This document shows positions 2,396 to 54,427 of a DNA stretch of 64,000 bases, one piece after another (within the stretch, counting starts at the first letter, position 1; every line of letters starts with the position of its first letter). A model generated the notes under the pieces. It made no database searches. It saw nothing but the letters and a program-made list of their open reading frames with translations, and had not been told where the DNA came from. This stretch comes from Sulfurovaceae bacterium (GTDB taxonomy: Bacteria > Campylobacterota > Campylobacteria > Campylobacterales > Sulfurovaceae): positions 124,001 through 188,000 of the forward strand of contig JAQTLE010000001.1 in the NCBI GenBank assembly GCA_028715055.1, given 5' to 3'. The translations under genes and the position numbers were made by a program.

Positions 2396-4218
2396 ATAGA
2401 TTTATACAAGATACACAGATTATTTATGATGAACTGACTGCTAGACAAGATAAACTCAATGGTTTTTTCAGATTGACTCATGAGCCGCACGATGAAGCAG
2501 ATAAAGCCGTAGAAGATTTTTTGAATTTCATCGGGTGCGAGAGAAACGAAGACAGCACTATGGCAGCACTTACACGCATAGTCAATTTGCGTGAAGATGC
2601 ACTTGAGCAAGTGTTGCAAAAAATGGGATATCACAGTGACGATATAATAGCTAAAAAAGAGCTAGTTTATTGGTGGACAAGCAGGCTCCATACTGCTAGA
2701 CATGAGTCGCTTTTGAAATGGGTAGAAGAGAATGGATTACTTACTCCATTTTATCGTACCCTTCTGAATGGTGTTCATGAAATCGGGATCGCTATGAGTG
2801 TCTGGCAAAGTGAGTGGACGGCTCATATCATACATACTATTAATCGTGAGCTCTTGAAGCAATTTCATGGTAATGATAAAGCAGTGTTAGCCTACTTGCA
2901 TGAGTATAGTCTATTGGATAAAGATACTTTCGGCGTGGTAAATGATAGATGTTATTCCGTTTTAGATAAAAGTATAGACGAGAAACATTGCTCCGTTGCT
3001 TATAGTGAAGCATTCAAGGATGAGGTAAATAGTGTATCCGCGGCATTATCAAACTTGATACAACAATTAGAAGTTATAGAAGATGATGTTTGGGATCAAA
3101 AAGAGGCTTGGATAAAATATTTTCAAGCTATCAATGATGCACTTTTGGAAAATAATGTATCGCATCTGTTATCAAAATGGCAAAAGGTGGATAGAACATG
3201 GATGAGTATCAAGACTCCTATTCAGGTGGGACATCCATTAGAATATTATGAAGATCATTATCGTAAGGCAGTAGCACTTGAGTGGGATGTGAGGATAATC
3301 AATCCTAAGCTTCAGCATGGCTCAAAAACACGTGAAAATATCATAGGATTTACCGGAGAACTAGCTCAAACTATCGGGAATGATGCCATAAGAACGGCCG
3401 CTAAAAATATCTCTCAACTTTCCCTTACTCAGCTTTATATAGGGCAGCCAATGCTCTATTATGCTGCAGAATTCAATGGACTGTTTTCTGCTCAAGTAGT
3501 CCCTAATGACAAAGTTGTATCAGATGAGTTGGGACATAAAATATTTGCATATGCGGATTTTGTTTTAGCTTCAAAATTATCAAAACCTATCATGAAATTA
3601 AATGTCGAGATAATGGGAGAAGAGTTTGTGAAAAATAGCAGAAGTTTTGCTGAGCATTGTCCTGAACTATGGCATGAGGTTTATGACATCTCTACCATCG
3701 GGCATGAGTTTGGTCATACACTATGGCTAGACGAAAAGACCGAGGGAGCTATGAATCAAAATGGTCAATTTAAAAATATAGAAGAATTCAAGGCAACTGC
3801 CGGTGGGCTAATGGCGTTTTTTCATAACGAAAAAGAGGAATTAAATAGTCATATAATTGATGACCTTGTTAACCGTTCAGTTGGGCTTATGGCGTGGAGA
3901 GAAGTGGGTGAAGTATTGCCTTATTATTGTGAAGGGCTTATACATCTGCATATTTTGTTCGAGTCTAAAATAATAGACTATAAAGATAGGATTTATATAA
4001 ATTACGAAAAATACGAAGATATGAAAAATTTGTATAAAGAAGCATATACCAAGCTCGCTATACATTATATAGCAAAAAAAGATGCAAGTGAGTATTTATA
4101 CAAATATGCCGTCAAAGAAGCAGGGGTTTATTTGCCTGTAGAGCCGAGAGTAAGAGCATTTGTAGAGCATTATTATGCCAGATATCAAGAGATCGGTCAG
4201 CAAACGATTAAATTGTAG
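2392..4218 (+). CDS. ciaB: CiaB-family protein with a zinc-metallopeptidase motif
   Basis: The 608-residue length and overall composition match the Campylobacter invasion antigen B family (about 610 aa). Residues 438-442 read HEFGH, a gluzincin-type HExxH zinc motif, followed about 25 residues later by EEFKATAGG, which can supply the third ligand. That arrangement recalls M49 (dipeptidyl-peptidase III) enzymes, whose second motif is EECRAE-like. There is no signal peptide. The start is ATG 2392, translationally coupled to rdgB. CiaB is described as a secreted invasion factor in C. jejuni; its presence in an apparently free-living sulfur oxidiser argues for a cytoplasmic peptidase or other housekeeping role. 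Family call from memory of the family, not from a search. Confidence 0.7.
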
Positions 4219-4220
4219 CG

Positions 4221-4275
4221 GTCATACCGCATTTGATGCGGTATCTGTGGATTCCATGTCGCAGCACGAAATGAC
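4221..4275. repeat. GTCAT...ATGAC intergenic palindrome
   Basis: An outer GTCAT/ATGAC pair encloses a perfect hairpin ATACCGCAT-TTG-ATGCGGTAT (4224-4244). It fills the 58-bp gap between convergent ciaB and the YaiI gene, and its ends match other intergenic palindromes at 43773, 59818, 60590 and 61545. It may act as a bidirectional terminator. Confidence 0.6.
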
Positions 4276-4276
4276 A

Positions 4277-4720
4277 TTATTTTTTTGACAAAAATTTATT
4301 GAGCCCATCCGCAAATGCCCTGACGGTTTTTGCATCTATGGCACCAGGACCACCTGTGATTTCTCCGCTGCTGCGAAGTTCATCCATTAGGTTCCTCATT
4401 GCAAGAAGATATTTTATATTTTCTTCATCATATATCGTTCCTCTAGGATCTAGAGCGATTGCGCCTTTGGTAACTACCCTGTCTGCCAGCGGAATATCAG
4501 CAGTTATGACTAGATCTTCTACTTCACAGAGTTCTGCTATACGGTCATCAGCGACATTTGTACCTAGTGAAACTATCTCCATTGATATATGTTCAACATT
4601 TGGAATATTTATATTTTTGTTGGCTATGAATATTGTCGTGATAGATCTTTTCAATACAGCGCGAAGCAATATTTCTTTGAGAGCATTTGGAAAAGCATCA
4701 GCGTCAACGAGGATCTTCAT
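4277..4720 (-). CDS. YaiI/YqxD family protein (DUF188, PIN-like)
   Basis: A 147-residue protein beginning MKILVDADAFP with conserved acidic positions (DADAFP near residues 6-11, TADIPLADR near 74-82, DPRG near 92-95), the signature of the UPF0178 YaiI/YqxD family, which has a PIN/NYN nuclease-like fold. No activity is firmly known. It lies 2 bp downstream of rhlE on the same strand, probably one transcript, which fits an RNA-related role. Complete and of normal family length. Confidence 0.85.
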   Translation of the reverse strand: MKILVDADAFPNALKEILLRAVLKRSITTIFIANKNINIPNVEHISMEIVSLGTNVADDRIAELCEVEDLVITADIPLADRVVTKGAIALDPRGTIYDEENIKYLLAMRNLMDELRSSGEITGGPGAIDAKTVRAFADGLNKFLSKK

Positions 4721-36290: not shown

Positions 36291-38315
36291 ATGAGCAGTA
36301 TATTCAAAATAATATTTAAATCAATGTTGATAGTAATAGGGATTGCAAGTAGTTATGCTATGGCAAATAGCGCGCCTAATATGTGCAGTCGAGATCAAAA
36401 CGACAACGAGTTTACAATATTAAGCTATCATGAAATAGCAGATAAAAGTGAAACGCTGGATTCAACCTATGCTGTAACTCCATTGCATTTTGATGAGCAG
36501 ATGCATTGGTTGATTGAACATGGTTACCACTTTGTTGATATAGATGATATTTTAAAGTATAGAAAAACAGGAAAGCCGCTGCCAAATAAAGCGGTTTTGG
36601 TCACATTTGATGATGGCTATCAGTCGGTTTATGCCAATGCATACCCTGTTATAAAAAAATACAAAATCCCTACTGTGATTGCATTGGTAGGCAGTTGGTT
36701 GAAGACAAAAGATAAAGTAAATTTTAATGGAGAAATTATTGCGCGCGATAAGTTTTTGAGTCAAAAAGAAATCAAAGAAATGGTAAGTAGCGGTCTTGTT
36801 GAAGTTGCCAGCCATAGTTATTTTTTACATAAAGGCATACAAGGCAATCCTCAAGGCAATATGGAACCGGCAGTGACAACTCGTCAATGGCTGACTGATA
36901 AACATTCATACGAAGATGAAAAAAGTTATAAAAAACGCGTATATAATGATTTGCTGGAAAATAATATTTTTTTAGAAAAATATACTGGACAAAAGCCTCG
37001 TGTAATGGTTTGGCCATATGGACGTTATAATATTGAGGTACGCCGCATCGCAGAGCAGTTAGGCATGCCAATAGGGTTAACATTGGATGATGGTAGCAAT
37101 ACGCGGATTACACCTTTATGGGGATTGCGACGTATATTGGTTGATAAAAATATGACGCTCAAAGATTTAGAACAGAATATGAGATTTAGAAATGCAAATT
37201 TGACCGATGATGATCGCACGACAAAAGCAGCACATATTGACCTGGATTATATATATGATCCAGATCCGGTTCAACAGGAAAAAAATTTGGGTAATTTGCT
37301 TGATCGCATAAAAAGACTTGGCGTTAATACGGTTTATTTGCAGGCCTTTGCTGATCCTGATGCAAATGGCGCAGCAGATTATGTATATTTTCCAAATAGA
37401 AATATACCGATGCGAGCTGATCTGTTCAATAGGGTTGCTTGGCAAATTGCAACTTGCACGCAAGTAAAGCGTGTTTATGCTTGGATGCCAATGATGGCTT
37501 GGCAATTGCCAAAAAAAAATATTGCCGCCAAAGATATGGTAGTGACATTGCAAGTTGATCCAACCCATCTAAATATGGGATATCCAAGATTATCCCCATT
37601 TTCTCCAAAAGCACAAAAAATAATTAAACAAATTTATGAGGACTTGTCAAAATCAGCTTATATTGATGGGATATTATTCCATGATGATGTAACCTTATCG
37701 GATTTTGAAGATGATAGTGAGGCAGCACATGTGCAGTATAAAAAATGGGGACTTTTTGATAGTGTTACAAGGATCAGAGCCGATAGAAACCAATTTGCGA
37801 AATGGACCAAACTTAAAACGCAATATTTAGATGATTTTGCAATGCAATTAGCTCAAATTGTAAGAAACGAACAACCAGGGCTAAAGACAGCACGCAATTT
37901 ATATGCGCAAGTTGCGTTAAACAATAATGCCGAGGAGTGGTATGCACAAAACTTGGCTGAATCAATAAAATATTATGATTACACCGCGATTATGGCTATG
38001 CCGTATATGGAACAAGCTAGCGATGACAAGCAGTTCTATGATAAGATCGTTAAGCATGTAAAACAAGATCGATGCGGGCTTGAACGTACGGTGATCGAAT
38101 TGCAAACTGTTAATTGGAGAAAAGATAATGAACCTATTTCTTCTCAAGAAATGAGCAAAACAATAAAATATTTATATGGTTTGGGCGTTCATCATGTGGC
38201 TTATTATCCAGATAACTTATATAAAAATAATCCTGATGCAGATATGATAAAACAAACTTTTGCACAAAAACCTGTGCGTATGCATGCAATTATGCCTAAC
38301 AACAAGAAAGATTGA
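36291..38315 (+). CDS. pgaB: Poly-beta-1,6-N-acetylglucosamine deacetylase PgaB
   Basis: A 674-residue exported two-domain enzyme. Signal peptide residues 1-25 (cleavage after SYAMA). The N-terminal deacetylase has LVTFDDGYQSVYANAYP (metal Asp pair near 105-107), VASHSYFLH (His ligands) and VMVWPYGRYN. The C-terminal half (from about 315) is the glycoside-hydrolase-like PNAG-binding domain (HIDLDYIYD, LFHDDVTLSDFED). No lipobox is seen, unlike E. coli PgaB, though a Cys lies at residue 32. Arginine codons include many CGN, more than in the cco genes, possibly a sign of transfer. ATG 36291 behind GGAGAAAT; overlaps pgaC by four bases. pgaA is absent. Confidence 0.9.
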   Translation: MSSIFKIIFKSMLIVIGIASSYAMANSAPNMCSRDQNDNEFTILSYHEIADKSETLDSTYAVTPLHFDEQMHWLIEHGYHFVDIDDILKYRKTGKPLPNKAVLVTFDDGYQSVYANAYPVIKKYKIPTVIALVGSWLKTKDKVNFNGEIIARDKFLSQKEIKEMVSSGLVEVASHSYFLHKGIQGNPQGNMEPAVTTRQWLTDKHSYEDEKSYKKRVYNDLLENNIFLEKYTGQKPRVMVWPYGRYNIEVRRIAEQLGMPIGLTLDDGSNTRITPLWGLRRILVDKNMTLKDLEQNMRFRNANLTDDDRTTKAAHIDLDYIYDPDPVQQEKNLGNLLDRIKRLGVNTVYLQAFADPDANGAADYVYFPNRNIPMRADLFNRVAWQIATCTQVKRVYAWMPMMAWQLPKKNIAAKDMVVTLQVDPTHLNMGYPRLSPFSPKAQKIIKQIYEDLSKSAYIDGILFHDDVTLSDFEDDSEAAHVQYKKWGLFDSVTRIRADRNQFAKWTKLKTQYLDDFAMQLAQIVRNEQPGLKTARNLYAQVALNNNAEEWYAQNLAESIKYYDYTAIMAMPYMEQASDDKQFYDKIVKHVKQDRCGLERTVIELQTVNWRKDNEPISSQEMSKTIKYLYGLGVHHVAYYPDNLYKNNPDADMIKQTFAQKPVRMHAIMPNNKKD

Positions 38316-39607
38316 AGATGACCTCTCTTATCTTTTTGCATTCTCTATGGCACGTTATGTTGGGGTTTGTATTTTATTATCCATTGTTTATGTCAAGTCT
38401 ATGGATAGTAGGGGCAATCTTTTTTTATTTTAAAAATGAAAAACCATACGCTAAATATATCATCCCACCCCTAGAAGCCAATGAAAGCTGGCCCGGAGTA
38501 AGTATTTTGATCCCATGCTACAATGAAGGTCAAAATGCCGTGGAAACAATTTCTTATGCCCTCAATGTGAAATATCCGGATTTTGAAGTCATTGCCATAA
38601 ATGATGGCAGCAAGGATGATACGTTAGAGATATTAGTAAATTTGGCGAAAAACAATCCAAAGTTAAAAGTGGTAAATTTAGCAGAAAATCAAGGTAAAGC
38701 TTTAGCTCTTCAGGCCGGTTCATTAGTGGCAAAGCACGAATACTTGGTGTGTATTGATGGGGATGCGTTAATTGATGAATATTGTGTCTATTGGATGGTA
38801 AAACATTTTATTCGTTATCCGGAAGTGGCCGCCGTGACCGGTAATCCAAGAATACGCAATCGTACGACTTTATTGGGCAAAATTCAAGTCGGTGAATTTT
38901 CTTCTATCGTAGGCATGATTAAGCGTGCACAACGTAGTTTTGGACGACTATTTACCGTATCTGGTGTGATAACAGGCTTTAGAAAGGCAGCCGTGCATGA
39001 AGTGGGTTATTGGAGCCCGGACATGCTGACAGAAGACATCGATATTACCTGGAAACTGCAAAGAAACGGATGGGATGTGCGCTTCGAACCTCGCTCTTTG
39101 GTATGGATTTTGATGCCAGAGACGTTGAGTGGATTGTGGAAACAACGTTTGCGTTGGGCCATGGGCGGCGTGCAAGTCATGCTTAAAAATTTTAAAGTTT
39201 TATTTTTGCCAAAGCAAACCCATCTTTGGGGGCTCATGGTTGAGCTCATGTTGAGTTCCCTTTGGGCATATACTATGGTGTTGGTATTTTTAGTCTGGTT
39301 TATGAGTTTATTTATGCCAATCACATTTTTAATGCCCGGCCATTCTCCTATTTTGCCTGATCAAAGCAGCGTTATTTTAATTGGTGCATGTTTGATACAG
39401 TTTGGTGTCAGTAAATGGTTAGACGGTCATTATGACCAGGGTCTTGGAAAAAATTATTTTTGGATGGTTTGGTATCCATTTGCCTATTGGTTGCTTAATT
39501 TGTTTACAGCAGTAACTGCACTTCCGAAGGTTTTATTGAGTAAAAAAGGTCGTGCTAGATGGGTTAGCCCGGACCGTGGTGCGCACCAACAGTTAAAAAA
39601 AGGTTGA
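38312..39607 (+). CDS. pgaC: Poly-beta-1,6-N-acetylglucosamine synthase PgaC
   Basis: A 431-residue family 2 processive glycosyltransferase in the inner membrane. Two N-terminal helices, then the GT2 domain with SILIPCYNEGQNA, AINDGSKDDT, CIDGDALIDE, TEDIDITWKL and KQRLRWAMGG (the QxxRW signature), then C-terminal helices. It polymerises UDP-GlcNAc into PNAG for biofilm matrix. Overlaps both pgaB and pgaD. Confidence 0.93.
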   Translation: MKMTSLIFLHSLWHVMLGFVFYYPLFMSSLWIVGAIFFYFKNEKPYAKYIIPPLEANESWPGVSILIPCYNEGQNAVETISYALNVKYPDFEVIAINDGSKDDTLEILVNLAKNNPKLKVVNLAENQGKALALQAGSLVAKHEYLVCIDGDALIDEYCVYWMVKHFIRYPEVAAVTGNPRIRNRTTLLGKIQVGEFSSIVGMIKRAQRSFGRLFTVSGVITGFRKAAVHEVGYWSPDMLTEDIDITWKLQRNGWDVRFEPRSLVWILMPETLSGLWKQRLRWAMGGVQVMLKNFKVLFLPKQTHLWGLMVELMLSSLWAYTMVLVFLVWFMSLFMPITFLMPGHSPILPDQSSVILIGACLIQFGVSKWLDGHYDQGLGKNYFWMVWYPFAYWLLNLFTAVTALPKVLLSKKGRARWVSPDRGAHQQLKKG

Positions 39608-39612
39608 GAAAT

Positions 39613-40056
39613 ATGGAAACTTTAATTATCAATAAACGTCATGAACTACCTCGAACCAAACGATTGATTTGGGACGTGGCAACTGTTGTACTTTGGTTAG
39701 GTTTTTTATATTTGTGGAAGCCTTTGTTGCATGTATTTTATAGAATAGTTACTTTTAATGAATCGGCTGGGGATATATCAAATTGGATTTTTATGAATAT
39801 TCATAGTGTAACATTTGAACATGCTGTATTTATGTTGATAGCAACGCCTATAGTACTTTTTCTATTGTCACGGCTAAACAGACATGTGGCTCCGAGTGAG
39901 CATTTAATATATAGCTCTAGCGATTACATAAAGTATTTCCATTTAAACGATACAGAGTTAGATCAATGCATAAATAGCCAATTTATTACAGTTTACTTTG
40001 ATGATCATGGACATATAATCCGCTTAAATAATCAAATTACAAAAAACAACAAATAA
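39613..40056 (+). CDS. pgaD: PNAG synthesis accessory protein PgaD
   Basis: About 147 residues with two membrane helices (roughly residues 21-45 and 75-95) and a cytoplasmic tail containing YSSSDYIKYFHLN. In E. coli PgaD and PgaC together bind cyclic di-GMP, which switches synthesis on. I choose ATG 39613 over the TTG at 39604 because it gives the usual short N-terminus METLIINKRHELPR. Confidence 0.82.
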   Translation: METLIINKRHELPRTKRLIWDVATVVLWLGFLYLWKPLLHVFYRIVTFNESAGDISNWIFMNIHSVTFEHAVFMLIATPIVLFLLSRLNRHVAPSEHLIYSSSDYIKYFHLNDTELDQCINSQFITVYFDDHGHIIRLNNQITKNNK

Positions 40057-41018: not shown

Positions 41019-41525
41019 ATGAGTAATAGAAGAGACTTCATGGGCATGGCTCTGGGTAGTTTTGCAGCTCTAGGTGCTTTAGGCGCGTTATACGCAGCCA
41101 AACGAACTTGGGATCCGTTGCCAAGCGTAAAATCAGCAGGTTTTACAACAATAGATCTCAGCGCAGCCAAAGAAAATGAGCTTGTAACAGAAAAATGGAG
41201 AGGAAAACCTGTCTTTATTCTAAAACAATCAGCTGATATGCCAAAAAGCGACAGAGAGATTAATATAGCAGGCGGAAGATATCTTGTAGTTGTTGGTCTT
41301 TGTACACACTTAGGATGTATCCCTACATATTTGGCGGATAAAAAAATGTTTAAATGTCCGTGTCACGGAGGAGAGTTTAACGCTGAGGGTATAAATACTT
41401 TTGGCCCACCACCAAGACCTCTTGATATACCACCATTTAAAATCACCGGTACAAGTATAGTTTTGGGTGAAACAGGCCCAGAGTATGAAAAAATGTTAGC
41501 CGCCGGCTTGACATTAAAAGTATAA
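41019..41525 (+). CDS. petA: Ubiquinol-cytochrome c reductase Rieske iron-sulfur subunit
   Basis: 168 residues. A twin-arginine signal-anchor (NRRDFMGMALGSFAALGALG) is followed by the Rieske domain with CTHLGCIPTY and CPCHGGEFNAEG, the 2Fe-2S Cys-His pairs. -10 TATAAT at 40982-40987 and GAAAGGAAT before ATG 41019. First gene of petABC. Confidence 0.95.
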   Translation: MSNRRDFMGMALGSFAALGALGALYAAKRTWDPLPSVKSAGFTTIDLSAAKENELVTEKWRGKPVFILKQSADMPKSDREINIAGGRYLVVVGLCTHLGCIPTYLADKKMFKCPCHGGEFNAEGINTFGPPPRPLDIPPFKITGTSIVLGETGPEYEKMLAAGLTLKV

Positions 41526-41534
41526 GGAGAGAAA

Positions 41535-42776
41535 ATGGCACATTTTGATGAAAAAGCGAAGCCCTTTTCGCACAAATGGTTAAATGAAAGAATGGCAGTA
41601 GATACTGTTAAAAAAGTTCTTTCTTCGGAGTACTGGATACCAAAAGATATTAACTTTTTGTGGGCTATGGGTATGATACTTGCAGCTACTTTCGGTTTGC
41701 TTATCGTTAGCGGTATATTCCTTTTGATGTATTATCAACCAAATGTAAATTTAGCATTTGACAGCGTAAACCATACTATTATGGGTGAAGTTGGTTTTGG
41801 TTGGTTGTGGAGACATATTCATGGAGTTGCAGCTTCAGTTGTATTCCTTATCATATATATTCATATGTTTACAGGTATATATTACGGTTCTTACAAAAGA
41901 GGTAGAGAAATGATCTGGCTAAGCGGTATGCTTTTGTTCGTTCTATTCTCTGCTGAAGCGTTTAGCGGTTATATGCTTCCATGGGGTCAAATGAGTTATT
42001 GGGCTGGTATGGTTATCACAAATCTTTTTGAAGGCTTTTCACCTACCATAGCTGGTGGCGCATTGAACTTCCCAGGATTTGTTGAATGGCTTAGAGGGGA
42101 CTATGTACCAGGTCAAGCATACTTAACAAGATTCTTTATGTTGCATGTATTCTTGCTTCCGCTTGTTATTATCGGAGTGATCGTATTACACTTTGCAACT
42201 TTGAGATTGCCTCACGTTAATAACCAAAAAGGTAAAGAAATCGATTTTGATGAAGCAGCAAAACTATATAAAAATGGTAAGAAAAAAGAATCAAAAGTAA
42301 TTCCATTCAGCCCGGTATTCTTAAGTAAAGATGTATTTGTGATGGGTGTTTATTTCATACTTTTCTTCTATTTGGTATTTTTCCACTTTGAATTTGCGAT
42401 GGATCCGGTAAACTTTGACCCTGCAGATGGACTTAAAACCCCAACTCATATATATCCAGAGTGGTATTTCTTGTGGTCATACGAGATACTTAGACCATTC
42501 CCTAAAGATCCTGGTCTAATTGCATTTGCATTCGCTCAAGTTGCGTTTTTCTTGCTCCCATTCCTTGATAAGAGTCCAGTAGTAGCTCCGGCTAACAACA
42601 GAGGTCTATTTAAAGTATGGTTCTGGGTTATGCTTGTAGACATGATAGTTCTAACTATAATGGGTAAATTGCCTCCAGAAGGCATGTGGACAATCGTCGG
42701 ACGTGTAGCTGCACTGATATTCATTGCACTATTTATAGCTCTTCCGATTATTACCAAAAAAGAAAAGAAAGCGTAA
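41535..42776 (+). CDS. petB: Cytochrome b of the bc1 complex
   Basis: 413 residues, eight membrane helices. Haem b His ligands lie in WLWRHIHGVAAS and the later FFMLHVFLLP / VLHFATLRLPH region; the Qo-site PEWY is present as HIYPEWYFLWSYEILR. The full-length fused form (not split b6/IV). 9 bp after petA. Confidence 0.95.
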   Translation: MAHFDEKAKPFSHKWLNERMAVDTVKKVLSSEYWIPKDINFLWAMGMILAATFGLLIVSGIFLLMYYQPNVNLAFDSVNHTIMGEVGFGWLWRHIHGVAASVVFLIIYIHMFTGIYYGSYKRGREMIWLSGMLLFVLFSAEAFSGYMLPWGQMSYWAGMVITNLFEGFSPTIAGGALNFPGFVEWLRGDYVPGQAYLTRFFMLHVFLLPLVIIGVIVLHFATLRLPHVNNQKGKEIDFDEAAKLYKNGKKKESKVIPFSPVFLSKDVFVMGVYFILFFYLVFFHFEFAMDPVNFDPADGLKTPTHIYPEWYFLWSYEILRPFPKDPGLIAFAFAQVAFFLLPFLDKSPVVAPANNRGLFKVWFWVMLVDMIVLTIMGKLPPEGMWTIVGRVAALIFIALFIALPIITKKEKKA

Positions 42777-42782
42777 GGGGGA

Positions 42783-43736
42783 ATGATAATGAAAGAGTTT
42801 AAAATATTAGCCGTTGTTGTCATCTTGTCTCTAATCACATATTGGGGAGTAGAGCCTTTTGCTCACTCTCAAATGCACAAACATGTAGAAGGTCATAATT
42901 TTGTATATGACGGGAAAGCTGATATTACAGATGCTGCAAAAGAAAAAGTAGCTGTTAAAAAAGCATTCTGGGGTGAAGTTAATCAAATAGCTAAACTACC
43001 TGGTAATGTAGCTGCAGGTGAAGCATCTTTTGCAGTATGTATGGGTTGTCATAATGGATCCGGCGTAAATATGGGCGGCGTTGTTCCTCCAAGTTTGGAT
43101 CATGCAGGTAGCCTATATGATAAAACATATCTAATCGCACTTATTAAAGATCCTGCAATTGCATCAAATGTAGATCATAAATATGCAGTTACAATGATGC
43201 ATCCAATGGGTGCAGTACAAACTATGGTTACTACTCCTCAGCAAATAGCTGATATCGTAGCATTCATTAAAGCTAAAAAAGTAGGTAATATAGAACCTAA
43301 ACAAGCTTTCCTAGAAGCTTGCGGCAGATGTCACGCAAATAGATACGGCGGGCTTACTCAAATCGGTGAAACTCCTAAGTTCAAAACCGAAAAAGAAGAG
43401 TTAGCTTATAAAGTAAAAGTTCTTGATGAACAAGATCTTGTTAAGGCATACATGGGTAAATTGCCACCTGATTTGTCTATCATGTCAAGAGCTAGAAGTG
43501 AACAATACATGGAGACTTTTGTAGAAAATCCTCAATCACAACTTCCTGGAACTTCGATGCCAAGAGTTGGACTAACAAAAGAGAGCTTTGAAAAAGTAAA
43601 AGCGTATCTTGATGAGACAGGAGATCCTAGCAAAGCTGCTAGAAATGCAATCGGACCATGGGTAATTCTATTCTTTGTAATTTTCACAGTACTTGCGTAT
43701 CTATGGAAAAAACATCAATGGAAGGACCTACATTAA
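42783..43736 (+). CDS. petC: Di-haem cytochrome c1-type subunit of the bc1 complex
   Basis: 317 residues with an N-terminal membrane helix, two haem c sites CMGCHNGSG and CGRCHANRYG, and a C-terminal membrane helix (WVILFFVIFTVLAYLW). The di-haem c4-like form instead of mono-haem c1 is characteristic of Campylobacterota. Starts ATG 42783 behind AAGGGGG; hands electrons to soluble cytochrome c or CcoP. Confidence 0.93.
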   Translation: MIMKEFKILAVVVILSLITYWGVEPFAHSQMHKHVEGHNFVYDGKADITDAAKEKVAVKKAFWGEVNQIAKLPGNVAAGEASFAVCMGCHNGSGVNMGGVVPPSLDHAGSLYDKTYLIALIKDPAIASNVDHKYAVTMMHPMGAVQTMVTTPQQIADIVAFIKAKKVGNIEPKQAFLEACGRCHANRYGGLTQIGETPKFKTEKEELAYKVKVLDEQDLVKAYMGKLPPDLSIMSRARSEQYMETFVENPQSQLPGTSMPRVGLTKESFEKVKAYLDETGDPSKAARNAIGPWVILFFVIFTVLAYLWKKHQWKDLH

Positions 43737-46295: not shown

Positions 46296-46301
46296 TATAA
46301 T
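46296..46301 (+). promoter_or_regulatory. -10 element of the sequon lipoprotein gene
   Basis: TATAAT directly after the queD stop codon; transcription would begin about 46308, 25 nt before the lipoprotein ATG with its CAAAGGATT ribosome site. The paralogous cytochrome gene has the same arrangement (TATAAT at 46708-46713, TCAAAGGATT before ATG). Confidence 0.55.
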
Positions 46302-46332
46302 TCCATTTGTGAACACAAATCAAAGGATTAAC

Positions 46333-46539
46333 ATGAAAAAATTGGTACTCATCTCTGTAGCTGCTGCAGCTCTTCTTTTCGTAGGTTGTAAAGGTAAACC
46401 GGCAGAAGCTAACGCAACTGAAGCTAATGCAACTACAATGGAAGCTAACGCAACTGAAGCTAACGCAACTGCTCCTGAAGCTAACGCAACTGCTGTAGAT
46501 GCTAACGCAACTGCTCCTGAAGCTAACGCAACTAAATAA
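46333..46539 (+). CDS. Small lipoprotein made of tandem EANAT N-glycosylation sequons
   Basis: 68 residues. Signal peptide with lipobox LFVGC, lipidated Cys19, then a tail built of EANAT/DANAT units: sequon asparagines at 27, 32, 39, 44, 51, 58 and 65, spaced 5 or 7 residues apart. Each fits the PglB consensus D/E-x-N-x-S/T. Nothing else is encoded. I chose ATG 46333 over GTG 46309 because of CAAAGGATT upstream and the perfect match to the start of the paralogue at 46746. The first 35 residues are nearly identical to that cytochrome, so it is a tandem duplicate without the haem domain. DNA units of 15 or 21 bases stay in frame if copy number changes. Own promoter and terminator. Role unknown. 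Confidence 0.8.
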   Translation: MKKLVLISVAAAALLFVGCKGKPAEANATEANATTMEANATEANATAPEANATAVDANATAPEANATK

Positions 46540-46552
46540 GTAAAACTTTTTA

Positions 46553-46579
46553 CAATCTCTTGCATAAGTCAAGGGATTG
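46553..46579 (+). terminator. Terminator after the sequon lipoprotein
   Basis: 10-bp stem CAATCTCTTG / CAAGGGATTG with one wobble pair and a 7-nt loop, followed by TTTTTCTT: a classic intrinsic terminator 14 bp after the stop. Confidence 0.8.
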
Positions 46580-46745
46580 TTTTTCTTCTAAAATTATTTA
46601 TATTTAAATCCCATTATCTTTTTTAGAATAATGTATATTTTTGAAATATTCTAAATATTTTCTACATTTATATTTTATTTTTATGTGAATTTCAACCAAA
46701 CTTTTTGTATAATGCCTCGTCCAAAAAAAAATTCAAAGGATTCTA

Positions 46746-47186
46746 ATGAAAAAATTGGTAATTATTTCAGTAGCTGCTGCTGCTCTTCTTTTCGTAGGTT
46801 GTAAAGGTAAACCGGCAGAAGCTAATACAACTGAAGCTAACGCAACTACTGTAGAGACTAACGCAACTGCTGCTGCTCCTGAAGCTAATACAACTGCTGC
46901 TGCTCCTGAAGCTAACGCAACTGCTGCTGCTGCTCCAGCTGCTGATGAAGGTAAAACTTTGTTTACTGCATGTGCAGCATGTCATGGTGTTGATGGTAAA
47001 ACAGCAGCTCTTGGTAAGTCAAATATTATCGCTGGTCAAGCTAAAGATGTTCTTGTTACAAAAATGAAAGGCTATAAAGCTGGTACAATAAATTTAACTG
47101 GTAACGGTGCTCTTATGAAAGGTCAAATGGCTAATCTTAATGATGAGCAAATGGAAAAATTGGCTGAGTTTGTTTCTAAACTATAA
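46746..47186 (+). CDS. Lipoprotein cytochrome c (c553-like) with sequon-rich linker
   Basis: 146 residues. Signal peptide and lipobox LFVGC (Cys19), then a low-complexity Ala/Pro/Asn/Thr linker (24-66) with five PglB-type sequons (Asn 27, 32, 39, 48, 57), then a class I cytochrome c domain with CAACH at 76-80 and likely distal Met in GALMKGQMANL. Probably tethered in the periplasm, on a flexible glycosylated arm, carrying electrons from PetC towards CcoP. ATG 46746 behind TCAAAGGATT. Shares its N-terminus and promoter layout with the neighbouring 68-residue lipoprotein. Confidence 0.88.
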   Translation: MKKLVIISVAAAALLFVGCKGKPAEANTTEANATTVETNATAAAPEANTTAAAPEANATAAAAPAADEGKTLFTACAACHGVDGKTAALGKSNIIAGQAKDVLVTKMKGYKAGTINLTGNGALMKGQMANLNDEQMEKLAEFVSKL

Positions 47187-52953: not shown

Positions 52954-53640
52954 ATGATAATTTATGGAAAACAAGTATGTTGGTATGTGCTAGAACACCA
53001 TCGTGCATTGGTAAAAACTGTCTATATAGCCAAGAAAGGCATTTTGCCTCAAAAGCTATTTGACAGCTATAGAGATCAAGTCAAATTCTTGGAAGAAAAA
53101 TGGGCTCAAGCTATGAGCAAAGGCGGAAATCATCAGGGTATTCTGCTGGAGCTCGAGTCATTTGAAGAGAGTGATTTGTCAAGTATGAAAAAAAATGATT
53201 TTTTAGTAGTACTTGATGGTCTTACCGATGTAGGCAATATAGGTGCCATTGTGCGAAGCGCATATGCTCTAGGGGCTGACGGTATTATAGCCATAGGCGT
53301 AGGACAGCTTAATTTTGCCGGAATCGCTAGAACAAGTGCTGGTGCACTGTTTAGCTTGCCTATGATGATAGCCTCCAACGGATTGGATGTGCTTCATGAA
53401 TTACATCAAAGTGGTTTTAAATTATACGGAGCTGCAATGGAGGGTACATCTCTTGATGATGTAGTTTTTGCAGATAAAAAGGTATTGGTTGTTGGAAGTG
53501 AGGGGGAGGGGATATCAAAACGGGTTTTGGGTAAGATAGATAAATTAGTATCTATACCTATGAAACATGAATTTGATTCTCTAAATGTAAGTGTAGCTAC
53601 TGCTATTTTGTTGCATAGGATGAATAATGCTATTAAGTGA
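52954..53640 (+). CDS. rlmB: TrmH/RlmB-family rRNA 2'-O-methyltransferase
   Basis: 228 residues; SPOUT methyltransferase with an N-terminal substrate-binding part (MIIYGKQVCWYVLEHHRALV) and the knot motifs VVLDGLTDVGNIGAIVRSAYALG, VLVVGSEGEGISKRV and VSIPMKHEFDSLNVSVATAI. Probably methylates 23S rRNA G2251. Equivalent to Cj0153c. Overlaps the next gene by 14 bases. Confidence 0.87.
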   Translation: MIIYGKQVCWYVLEHHRALVKTVYIAKKGILPQKLFDSYRDQVKFLEEKWAQAMSKGGNHQGILLELESFEESDLSSMKKNDFLVVLDGLTDVGNIGAIVRSAYALGADGIIAIGVGQLNFAGIARTSAGALFSLPMMIASNGLDVLHELHQSGFKLYGAAMEGTSLDDVVFADKKVLVVGSEGEGISKRVLGKIDKLVSIPMKHEFDSLNVSVATAILLHRMNNAIK

Positions 53641-54427
53641 GATTTTAGAAGAAAACAGTGTACAAAGTATTAATAATAAAACGAAGATATCTATTGATAC
53701 TTTAAATAAAATTATAGCAAGGGATTTTAGTAGTTTTAAAAAAGTTCAGGCATTCGGATTTATCTCTATTTTAGAGAGAGAGTACGGTGGCAGAATAGAT
53801 GATCTTCGTCGAGATTGTGAAGATTATTTTGCTTCCCACCTTAAAGAAGAAGTTACTTTTATAGCACCAAATGTTGTCAAAACGACTTCTAAACCACAAT
53901 GGTTATTATGGTTGGCCGGTTTTGGCATATTTGCATTGGCTACATATTTTCTTATCCAATCAAGCACATCAAATGATAGACCTGAATATAAAGAAGAGAT
54001 CAATGCAACAAAATCGGCTGCCGTCAATCAACCAATAGAAGCAAATACTACTATAAATGCAAATGCAGCAGAAAAAAATATCACAATTCCTGCTGCCGCA
54101 ATTGATAGCAATAGATCATTAGCAAAAGATAATAATGCCTCATCTGTATCTCAATTAAAAATTGTTCCTAAGAGCAAATTGTGGTTTGGAATGATGGATA
54201 TAGATACGAAAGAACTACAAAATAGCATCATTTCAGATGCATTTAATATCGATATGAGCAAACAATGGCTAATAGCTACAAGTAAAGCATCATTTAGTTT
54301 GCAATCGTCTCAAGGTACAAAAGAATATAAAGATTATCATGTCCATTATTTTAAAGCAGATAAAAATGGATTTGCTGAAATCACAAAAGAGGAATTTGTT
54401 ACTCTTGGCGGTCCAAAAAGATGGTAA
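53627..54427 (+). CDS. HTH-membrane protein (Cj0152c-like) with sequon-rich periplasmic linker
   Basis: 266 residues. Cytoplasmic N-terminus (1-88) with a helix-turn-helix-like part, one membrane helix (92-112), a low-complexity outside linker (113-175), and a C-terminal beta-rich domain (176-266). This RodZ-like topology fits a cell-envelope organiser. The linker contains five D/E-x-N-x-S/T sequons: Asn126, Asn140, Asn151, Asn162, Asn170. By position it corresponds to C. jejuni Cj0152c, which I recall as a reported N-glycoprotein. Starts at ATG 53627 inside the rlmB-like gene. Confidence 0.65.
   Translation: MLLSEILEENSVQSINNKTKISIDTLNKIIARDFSSFKKVQAFGFISILEREYGGRIDDLRRDCEDYFASHLKEEVTFIAPNVVKTTSKPQWLLWLAGFGIFALATYFLIQSSTSNDRPEYKEEINATKSAAVNQPIEANTTINANAAEKNITIPAAAIDSNRSLAKDNNASSVSQLKIVPKSKLWFGMMDIDTKELQNSIISDAFNIDMSKQWLIATSKASFSLQSSQGTKEYKDYHVHYFKADKNGFAEITKEEFVTLGGPKRW

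Follow-up and report, generated by a model that had tools for sequence, protein, structure and literature searches.

A sequon-rich lipoprotein gene beside a tethered cytochrome c

The window analysed here is a 64,000-nucleotide stretch of the genome of a Sulfurovaceae bacterium. A small gene on its forward strand, which also carries the features described below from the bc1 genes to the cytochrome gene, spans 46333..46539 and encodes a 68-residue lipoprotein, MKKLVLISVAAAALLFVGCKGKPAEANATEANATTMEANATEANATAPEANATAVDANATAPEANATK, whose chain beyond the signal peptide is largely taken up by N-glycosylation sequons. The gene, its pairing with a downstream cytochrome gene and the surrounding synteny are kept in the genus. 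Residues 1–18 (46333..46386) form a predicted lipoprotein signal peptide, in which a basic n-region (KK), a hydrophobic core and a Cys-ending, lipobox-like LLFVG/C pattern are all recognizable from the sequence alone; lipidation would occur at Cys19 (codon 46387-46389). The −3 position of the lipobox is occupied by Phe, where Leu, Val or Ile is usual, and Phe-x-Gly-Cys is shared by the homologous small lipoproteins of the window's genus and of Sulfuricurvum.

The 49 residues that follow Cys19 include six EANAT units and one DANAT unit, which account for 35 of the 49 residues. These seven D/E-x-N-x-T sequons (46405..46533) map to 46405-46419, 46420-46434, 46441-46455, 46456-46470, 46477-46491, 46498-46512 (DANAT) and 46519-46533. 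All seven Asn residues of the protein fall within them, and every site conforms to the acceptor consensus of the oligosaccharyltransferase PglB (D/E-x-N-x-S/T, Pro being excluded from both x positions). Residue shuffling of the protein yielded a mean of 0.14 sequons and a maximum of three; none of 20,000 shuffles reached seven, and a chance origin of the sequon density was rejected on this basis. The density is 14 sequons per 100 residues, versus a mean of 0.09 per 100 residues in the other window ORFs of at least 150 residues. An initial annotation had described a sequon-packed lipoprotein with 15- and 21-base DNA repeats and no other domain. The seven sequons bear out the first point, Tandem Repeats Finder (TRF) detects both the 15- and the 21-nt periodicity, and the protein matches no Pfam family.

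The neighbouring gene (46746..47186), a paralogue of the small gene, starts 206 nt downstream of it, had escaped the initial annotation and encodes a lipoprotein cytochrome c. Its head, MKKLVIISVAAAALLFVGCKGKPAEAN, is nearly identical to that of the small lipoprotein and is followed by a linker with five sequons (residues 20–75); low-complexity acidic stretches of like kind are found in both proteins. The remainder is a class I cytochrome c domain, as indicated by a Pfam match (PF00034, E=2.3e-10) and a haem-binding CXXCH motif, here CAACH (Cys76, Cys79 and His80; 46971..46985). The best solved relative of this domain is Desulfovibrio cytochrome c553 (1dvh, E=4.7e-12), a class I protein matched by residues 68–146; unlike the window protein, it has neither a lipid anchor nor a sequon linker.

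Promoter-like and ribosome-binding sequences are separate for the two genes. The small gene is preceded by a putative −10 box (TATAAT, 46296..46301), which occurs at this place in all genus members compared, and by a Shine-Dalgarno-like AAAGGA (46322-46327), both recognized as consensus matches. It is followed by a hairpin and T-run resembling a terminator (46552..46580); relatives have a hairpin at the same place, most with a different stem sequence. The putative −10 box of the cytochrome gene (TATAAT, 46708..46713) is likewise conserved in the genus members compared. The genes are arranged in the order bc1 complex (petABC, encoding the Rieske protein, cytochrome b and cytochrome c1; 41019..43736), moaA, queE, queD, small gene, cytochrome gene and, on the opposite strand, moeA. 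The bc1 genes belong to the conserved neighbourhood and may specify the electron source of the cytochrome. Elsewhere in the window (36291-40056), genes resembling pgaB, pgaC and pgaD, involved in poly-N-acetylglucosamine synthesis, were recognized from their translations.

Conservation and variation of the gene pair

The order queD, small gene, cytochrome gene, moeA is found in seven genomes of the genus (G000, G003, G005, G006, G007, G008 and G010). In an eighth, G009, one contig stops within the small-gene repeats and the next starts just before the cytochrome gene. Small-gene heads are 86–98% identical to each other at the nucleotide level in six species, that of G008 being divergent, and mostly 69–80% identical to cytochrome heads. 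In the window, the head of the cytochrome gene resembles the six small-gene heads (86–95% identity, leaving out G008) more than it does most cytochrome heads elsewhere (71–78%), which suggests gene conversion between the two heads. Given the synteny, the clustering of its heads, the TATAAT boxes before both genes and the hairpins that follow it, the small gene is an independent, maintained gene.

The number of sequons ranges from 4 to 9 between species of the genus (one genome per species). We counted Asn residues in ten small lipoproteins from three families, seven from the genus and three from other families (G234, G051 and G082). Full sequons contain 67 of the 69 Asn residues, and each of the other two is the C-terminal residue. 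In nine tethered-cytochrome linkers, 43 of 43 Asn residues lie in full sequons. Position −2 holds only D or E and position +2 only T or S, whereas position −1 may be A, T, S, E, M or V and position +1 may be A, V, T, K or L. Since the outer positions are fixed while the inner ones vary, the pattern looks as if a PglB site, and not a repeat, had been conserved. Elsewhere in the window's family, genera that also have pglB encode cytochromes with sequon-free linkers of a helical AKEAA type and lack the small partner. A pattern search for three tandem A/T-type sequons retrieved only 10 of the 299 genomes of the order, one of which led to Sulfuricurvum.

Counterparts of the pair occur in Sulfuricurvum, a genus of another family, where a small lipoprotein gene lies 104–137 nt before a lipoprotein cytochrome c gene in 30 of 30 loci. 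Most of these small lipoproteins are sequon-free Ala/Glu/Pro repeats, such as EEAAAPVAEEAAAP; half of them (15/30) lack Asn altogether, and a minority carry 1–5 sequons. Where Asn is present, 31 of 35 residues fall in full sequons, versus about one expected. The cytochrome linkers are looser (34 of 86 Asn residues, versus 2 expected). STT3 is encoded in all 29 well-assembled Sulfuricurvum genomes, so the number of sequons varies while the enzyme remains constant. Stretches that bear sequons tend to be shorter than those without: the correlation is rho −0.80 among Sulfuricurvum small lipoproteins and rho −0.79 among cytochrome linkers in the window's family, kinship being ignored in both. The genomic neighbourhoods of the pair differ between the two families. 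The ThiF neighbour at the Sulfuricurvum locus is 79–87% identical to that in L116 and L125; a tree of this neighbour, built to count sequon gains, has weak support.

Because the pair persists in pglB-positive Sulfuricurvum, mostly without sequons, these comparisons indicate that both the family of small lipoproteins and its association with the cytochrome extend beyond glycosylation, sequons having been added in particular lineages. For the same reason, glycans would not be a core requirement of the pair. The initial annotation had named repeats without conserved D/E or T in relatives as evidence against its view. Across the genus the sequons are kept, in line with that view; outside the genus, the Sulfuricurvum counterparts, mostly sequon-free despite pglB, count in part against it.

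Two further observations concern related lipoproteins. In Helicobacter japonicus (L119), a lipoprotein cytochrome c gene (4001-4492) follows, at a distance of 48 nt, a gene for a small lipoprotein that is acidic, of low complexity and free of sequons; the two may represent the same module. A follow-up search in family f10 returned weak matches only. In another family, stand-alone EANTT/EANAT lipoproteins are encoded near aroE (L063 in G051 and L081 in G082), with no cytochrome c gene within 2.3 kb (G051) or 1.2 kb (G082).

A PglB homologue and its candidate substrates

The genome encodes one STT3-family protein, P0003, whose gene (C1:53941-56139) precedes the window by about 68 kb. P0003 scores 89.3 bits against the STT3 Pfam model (cut-off 24.5), aligns over its full length to Campylobacter lari PglB (3rce, E=2.2e-112) and, in ClPglB numbering, keeps the catalytic acids, E319, the DxD-type and WWDYGY motifs, R147 and R331. 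The two arginines of ClPglB are implicated in the preference for an acidic residue at −2. In other PglBs, R331 does not by itself ensure strict specificity (PMC4894442). Against the NCBIfam PglB equivalog model, P0003 scores 491.8 bits over its full length, versus a cut-off of 1300 bits; by homology it is thus a PglB homologue that lies outside this model. Upstream of the gene, we identified genes for a PglF/PseB-type dehydratase, an aminotransferase, a NeuD-type acetyltransferase, a PglC-type phosphosugar transferase and glycosyltransferases. A PglB and a pgl-type cluster, which the initial annotation had proposed to look for, are therefore present. PF02516 is found in 11/11 genomes of the genus and in 49/59 relatives. 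PglBs of vent Campylobacterota, including that of Sulfurovum lithotrophicum, were reportedly characterized by Mills et al. in 2016 (cited in PMC6025236). Two PglBs reside within unusually long open frames of 1010 and 817 residues (G234:C5:72051-74132 and G383:C61:35668-36660, respectively), perhaps with an extra domain.

The presence of PglB and a pgl-type cluster, the retention of R331 and the retention of sequons while neighbouring residues change make it likely that the small lipoprotein and the tethered cytochrome are natural PglB substrates. Against this, no STT3 match was obtained in G051 (97% complete) or G401 (88%), both of which have sequon-bearing small lipoproteins; for G051 an assembly gap is possible, as G068 and G082 of the same genus have PglB. 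Neither the genus members nor the well-assembled Sulfuricurvum genomes include a clean pglB-minus genome with which sequons could be correlated with pglB loss. Genome-wide counts of tandem sequons were rejected as a test of pglB dependence: the excess over the reversed pattern stems largely from Asn-rich repetitive proteins and also occurs in genomes without an STT3 match, and the counts do not discriminate.

Sequons are also found in other proteins. Window gene 53627-54427, on the forward strand, encodes a membrane-anchored protein comprising an N-terminal domain, a single transmembrane stretch and, in the periplasm, a linker with five sequons (EINAT, EANTT, EKNIT and others); its genus orthologues keep sequons in the linker. 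In G000, a penicillin-binding-protein-like ORF (L047; C1:244668-244711) ends in the C-terminal tail DLNATDANNTDKNNT, and a membrane protein (L049; C1:339212-339291) has a sequon-rich linker before its C-terminal domain. The tandem sequons of L047 and L049 are likely to lie in periplasmic disordered segments.

Proposed role and relation to known systems

As far as sequence and setting indicate, the window gene encodes a cytochrome-associated low-complexity lipoprotein in a probably N-glycan-decorated form, similar to Lip and Laz of Neisseria, its low-complexity stretch having been filled with PglB acceptor sites in the window lineage. On balance, we slightly favour the view that the protein is a PglB-modified small partner of the tethered cytochrome c and forms a spacing or protecting brush. 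Following export by Sec, the lipoprotein would be lipidated at Cys19 and stay unfolded; chains that Sec delivers unfolded are known to be readily modified by PglB. PglB would then place N-glycans on several of the seven Asn residues. This would leave an acidic brush of lipid-anchored, glycan-bearing chains on a periplasm-facing membrane, beside a cytochrome c that is carried on an equally decorated linker and may receive electrons from the bc1 complex. Such a brush would most likely serve to keep the tethered cytochrome spaced and hydrated and to shield it from proteases and crowding, and the glycans could replace the bulk that longer chains give in sequon-free relatives. In C. jejuni lacking pglB, electron-transport functions such as NapAB are impaired (PMC6478998). 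A more far-reaching proposal, advanced only tentatively, is that the lipoprotein serves solely to hold several PglB glycans beside the tethered cytochrome c, as a periplasmic brush serving respiration, and that it evolved more than once from an unglycosylated Ala/Glu/Pro spacer lipoprotein.

It is possible, if unlikely, that only a disordered acidic spacer is essential and that sequons are tolerated composition, glycosylated hardly or not at all. The sequon-free Ala/Glu/Pro versions at the same place in pglB-positive Sulfuricurvum fit such a spacer; what the small lipoproteins there have in common is a net charge between roughly −7 and −15. However, in two families Asn is nearly confined to complete five-residue sequons, at some thirty times the shuffle expectation in Sulfuricurvum, and −2 and +2 stay constant beside changing −1 and +1 positions; both are at odds with mere tolerance. 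A more doubtful reading is that of the initial annotation, in which the protein is a dedicated N-glycan display lipoprotein, a surface coat or decoy independent of any cytochrome. Although the sequon density and the stand-alone lipoproteins of G051 and G082 accord with this idea, sequons are dispensable in relatives, and the cytochrome gene is paired with the small gene wherever the flanks of a genus locus are intact and in all 30 Sulfuricurvum loci. The small gene, taken initially for an isolated glycan carrier, thus specifies a partner of the tethered cytochrome c, and free-standing surface display is less likely. We consider it very improbable that the repeat is mainly a target of O-glycosylation or another modification, with Asn incidental: Thr makes up 17% of the repeat and low-complexity lipoproteins of Neisseria are O-glycosylated (PMC9239064), but the acidic −2 residue and the Asn that are kept are not needed by O-oligosaccharyltransferases, and Ser is absent after Cys19. 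A functionless truncated duplicate of the cytochrome gene can be discounted almost entirely, since the common head and linker, and a window cytochrome head nearest to small-gene heads, are outweighed by the sequon shuffles and by an open, syntenic gene whose heads cluster across six species and whose −10 box and terminator hairpin recur across the genus.

If the small lipoprotein is indeed a glycosylated cytochrome partner, the pair bears on the role of general bacterial N-glycosylation, which is still poorly defined. Sister species share the same enzyme and the same gene pair but have anywhere from 0 to 9 acceptor sites, which would allow a direct comparison of what N-glycans do to a tethered cytochrome and its companion. 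The proteins also offer natural tandem acceptor tags, and they suggest that the O-glycosylated Lip/Laz proteins and cytochrome linkers known from Neisseria have a counterpart based on N-linked sugars.

Lip (H.8 antigen) and Laz (lipid-modified azurin) are the nearest parallel. By analogy, the window pair would work like them but is not a member of the group. In both systems, a repeat-only lipoprotein accompanies a redox lipoprotein with the same repeats; Lip and Laz are both glycoproteins, modified in or near their AAEAP repeats (PMC9239064), and the sequon-free Sulfuricurvum versions (AAPVAEEAA-like) approach AAEAP in composition. In contrast, the H.8/Lip family is defined by AAEAP pentapeptides with O-glycosylated Ser, the sugar being attached by PglO, while the window pair has N-glycosylation sequons and its small lipoprotein has EANAT units and no Ser after Cys19. 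Moreover, the Neisseria redox domain is a copper azurin rather than a cytochrome c, and the Neisseria genes are, by locus number, not adjacent (Ngo0983 and Ngo0994). Natural tandem PglB sequons are also found in C. jejuni Cj1433c, whose GlycoTag (9 x KIDLNNT), once exported in glyco-competent E. coli, receives as many as 9 N-glycans (PMC4879521), so that closely packed sequon repeats are within the reach of PglB; unlike the window sequons, those of the GlycoTag are perfect repeats and part of a larger protein that is not a lipoprotein. Finally, Neisseria cytochrome c5 and tri-haem CcoP carry glycans of the general system on Ala-rich linkers by their c-type haem domains (PMC2924362). As in the window cytochrome, low-complexity linkers adjoin c-type haem domains, although those of Neisseria are O-linked, Ser-based and without a small partner lipoprotein.
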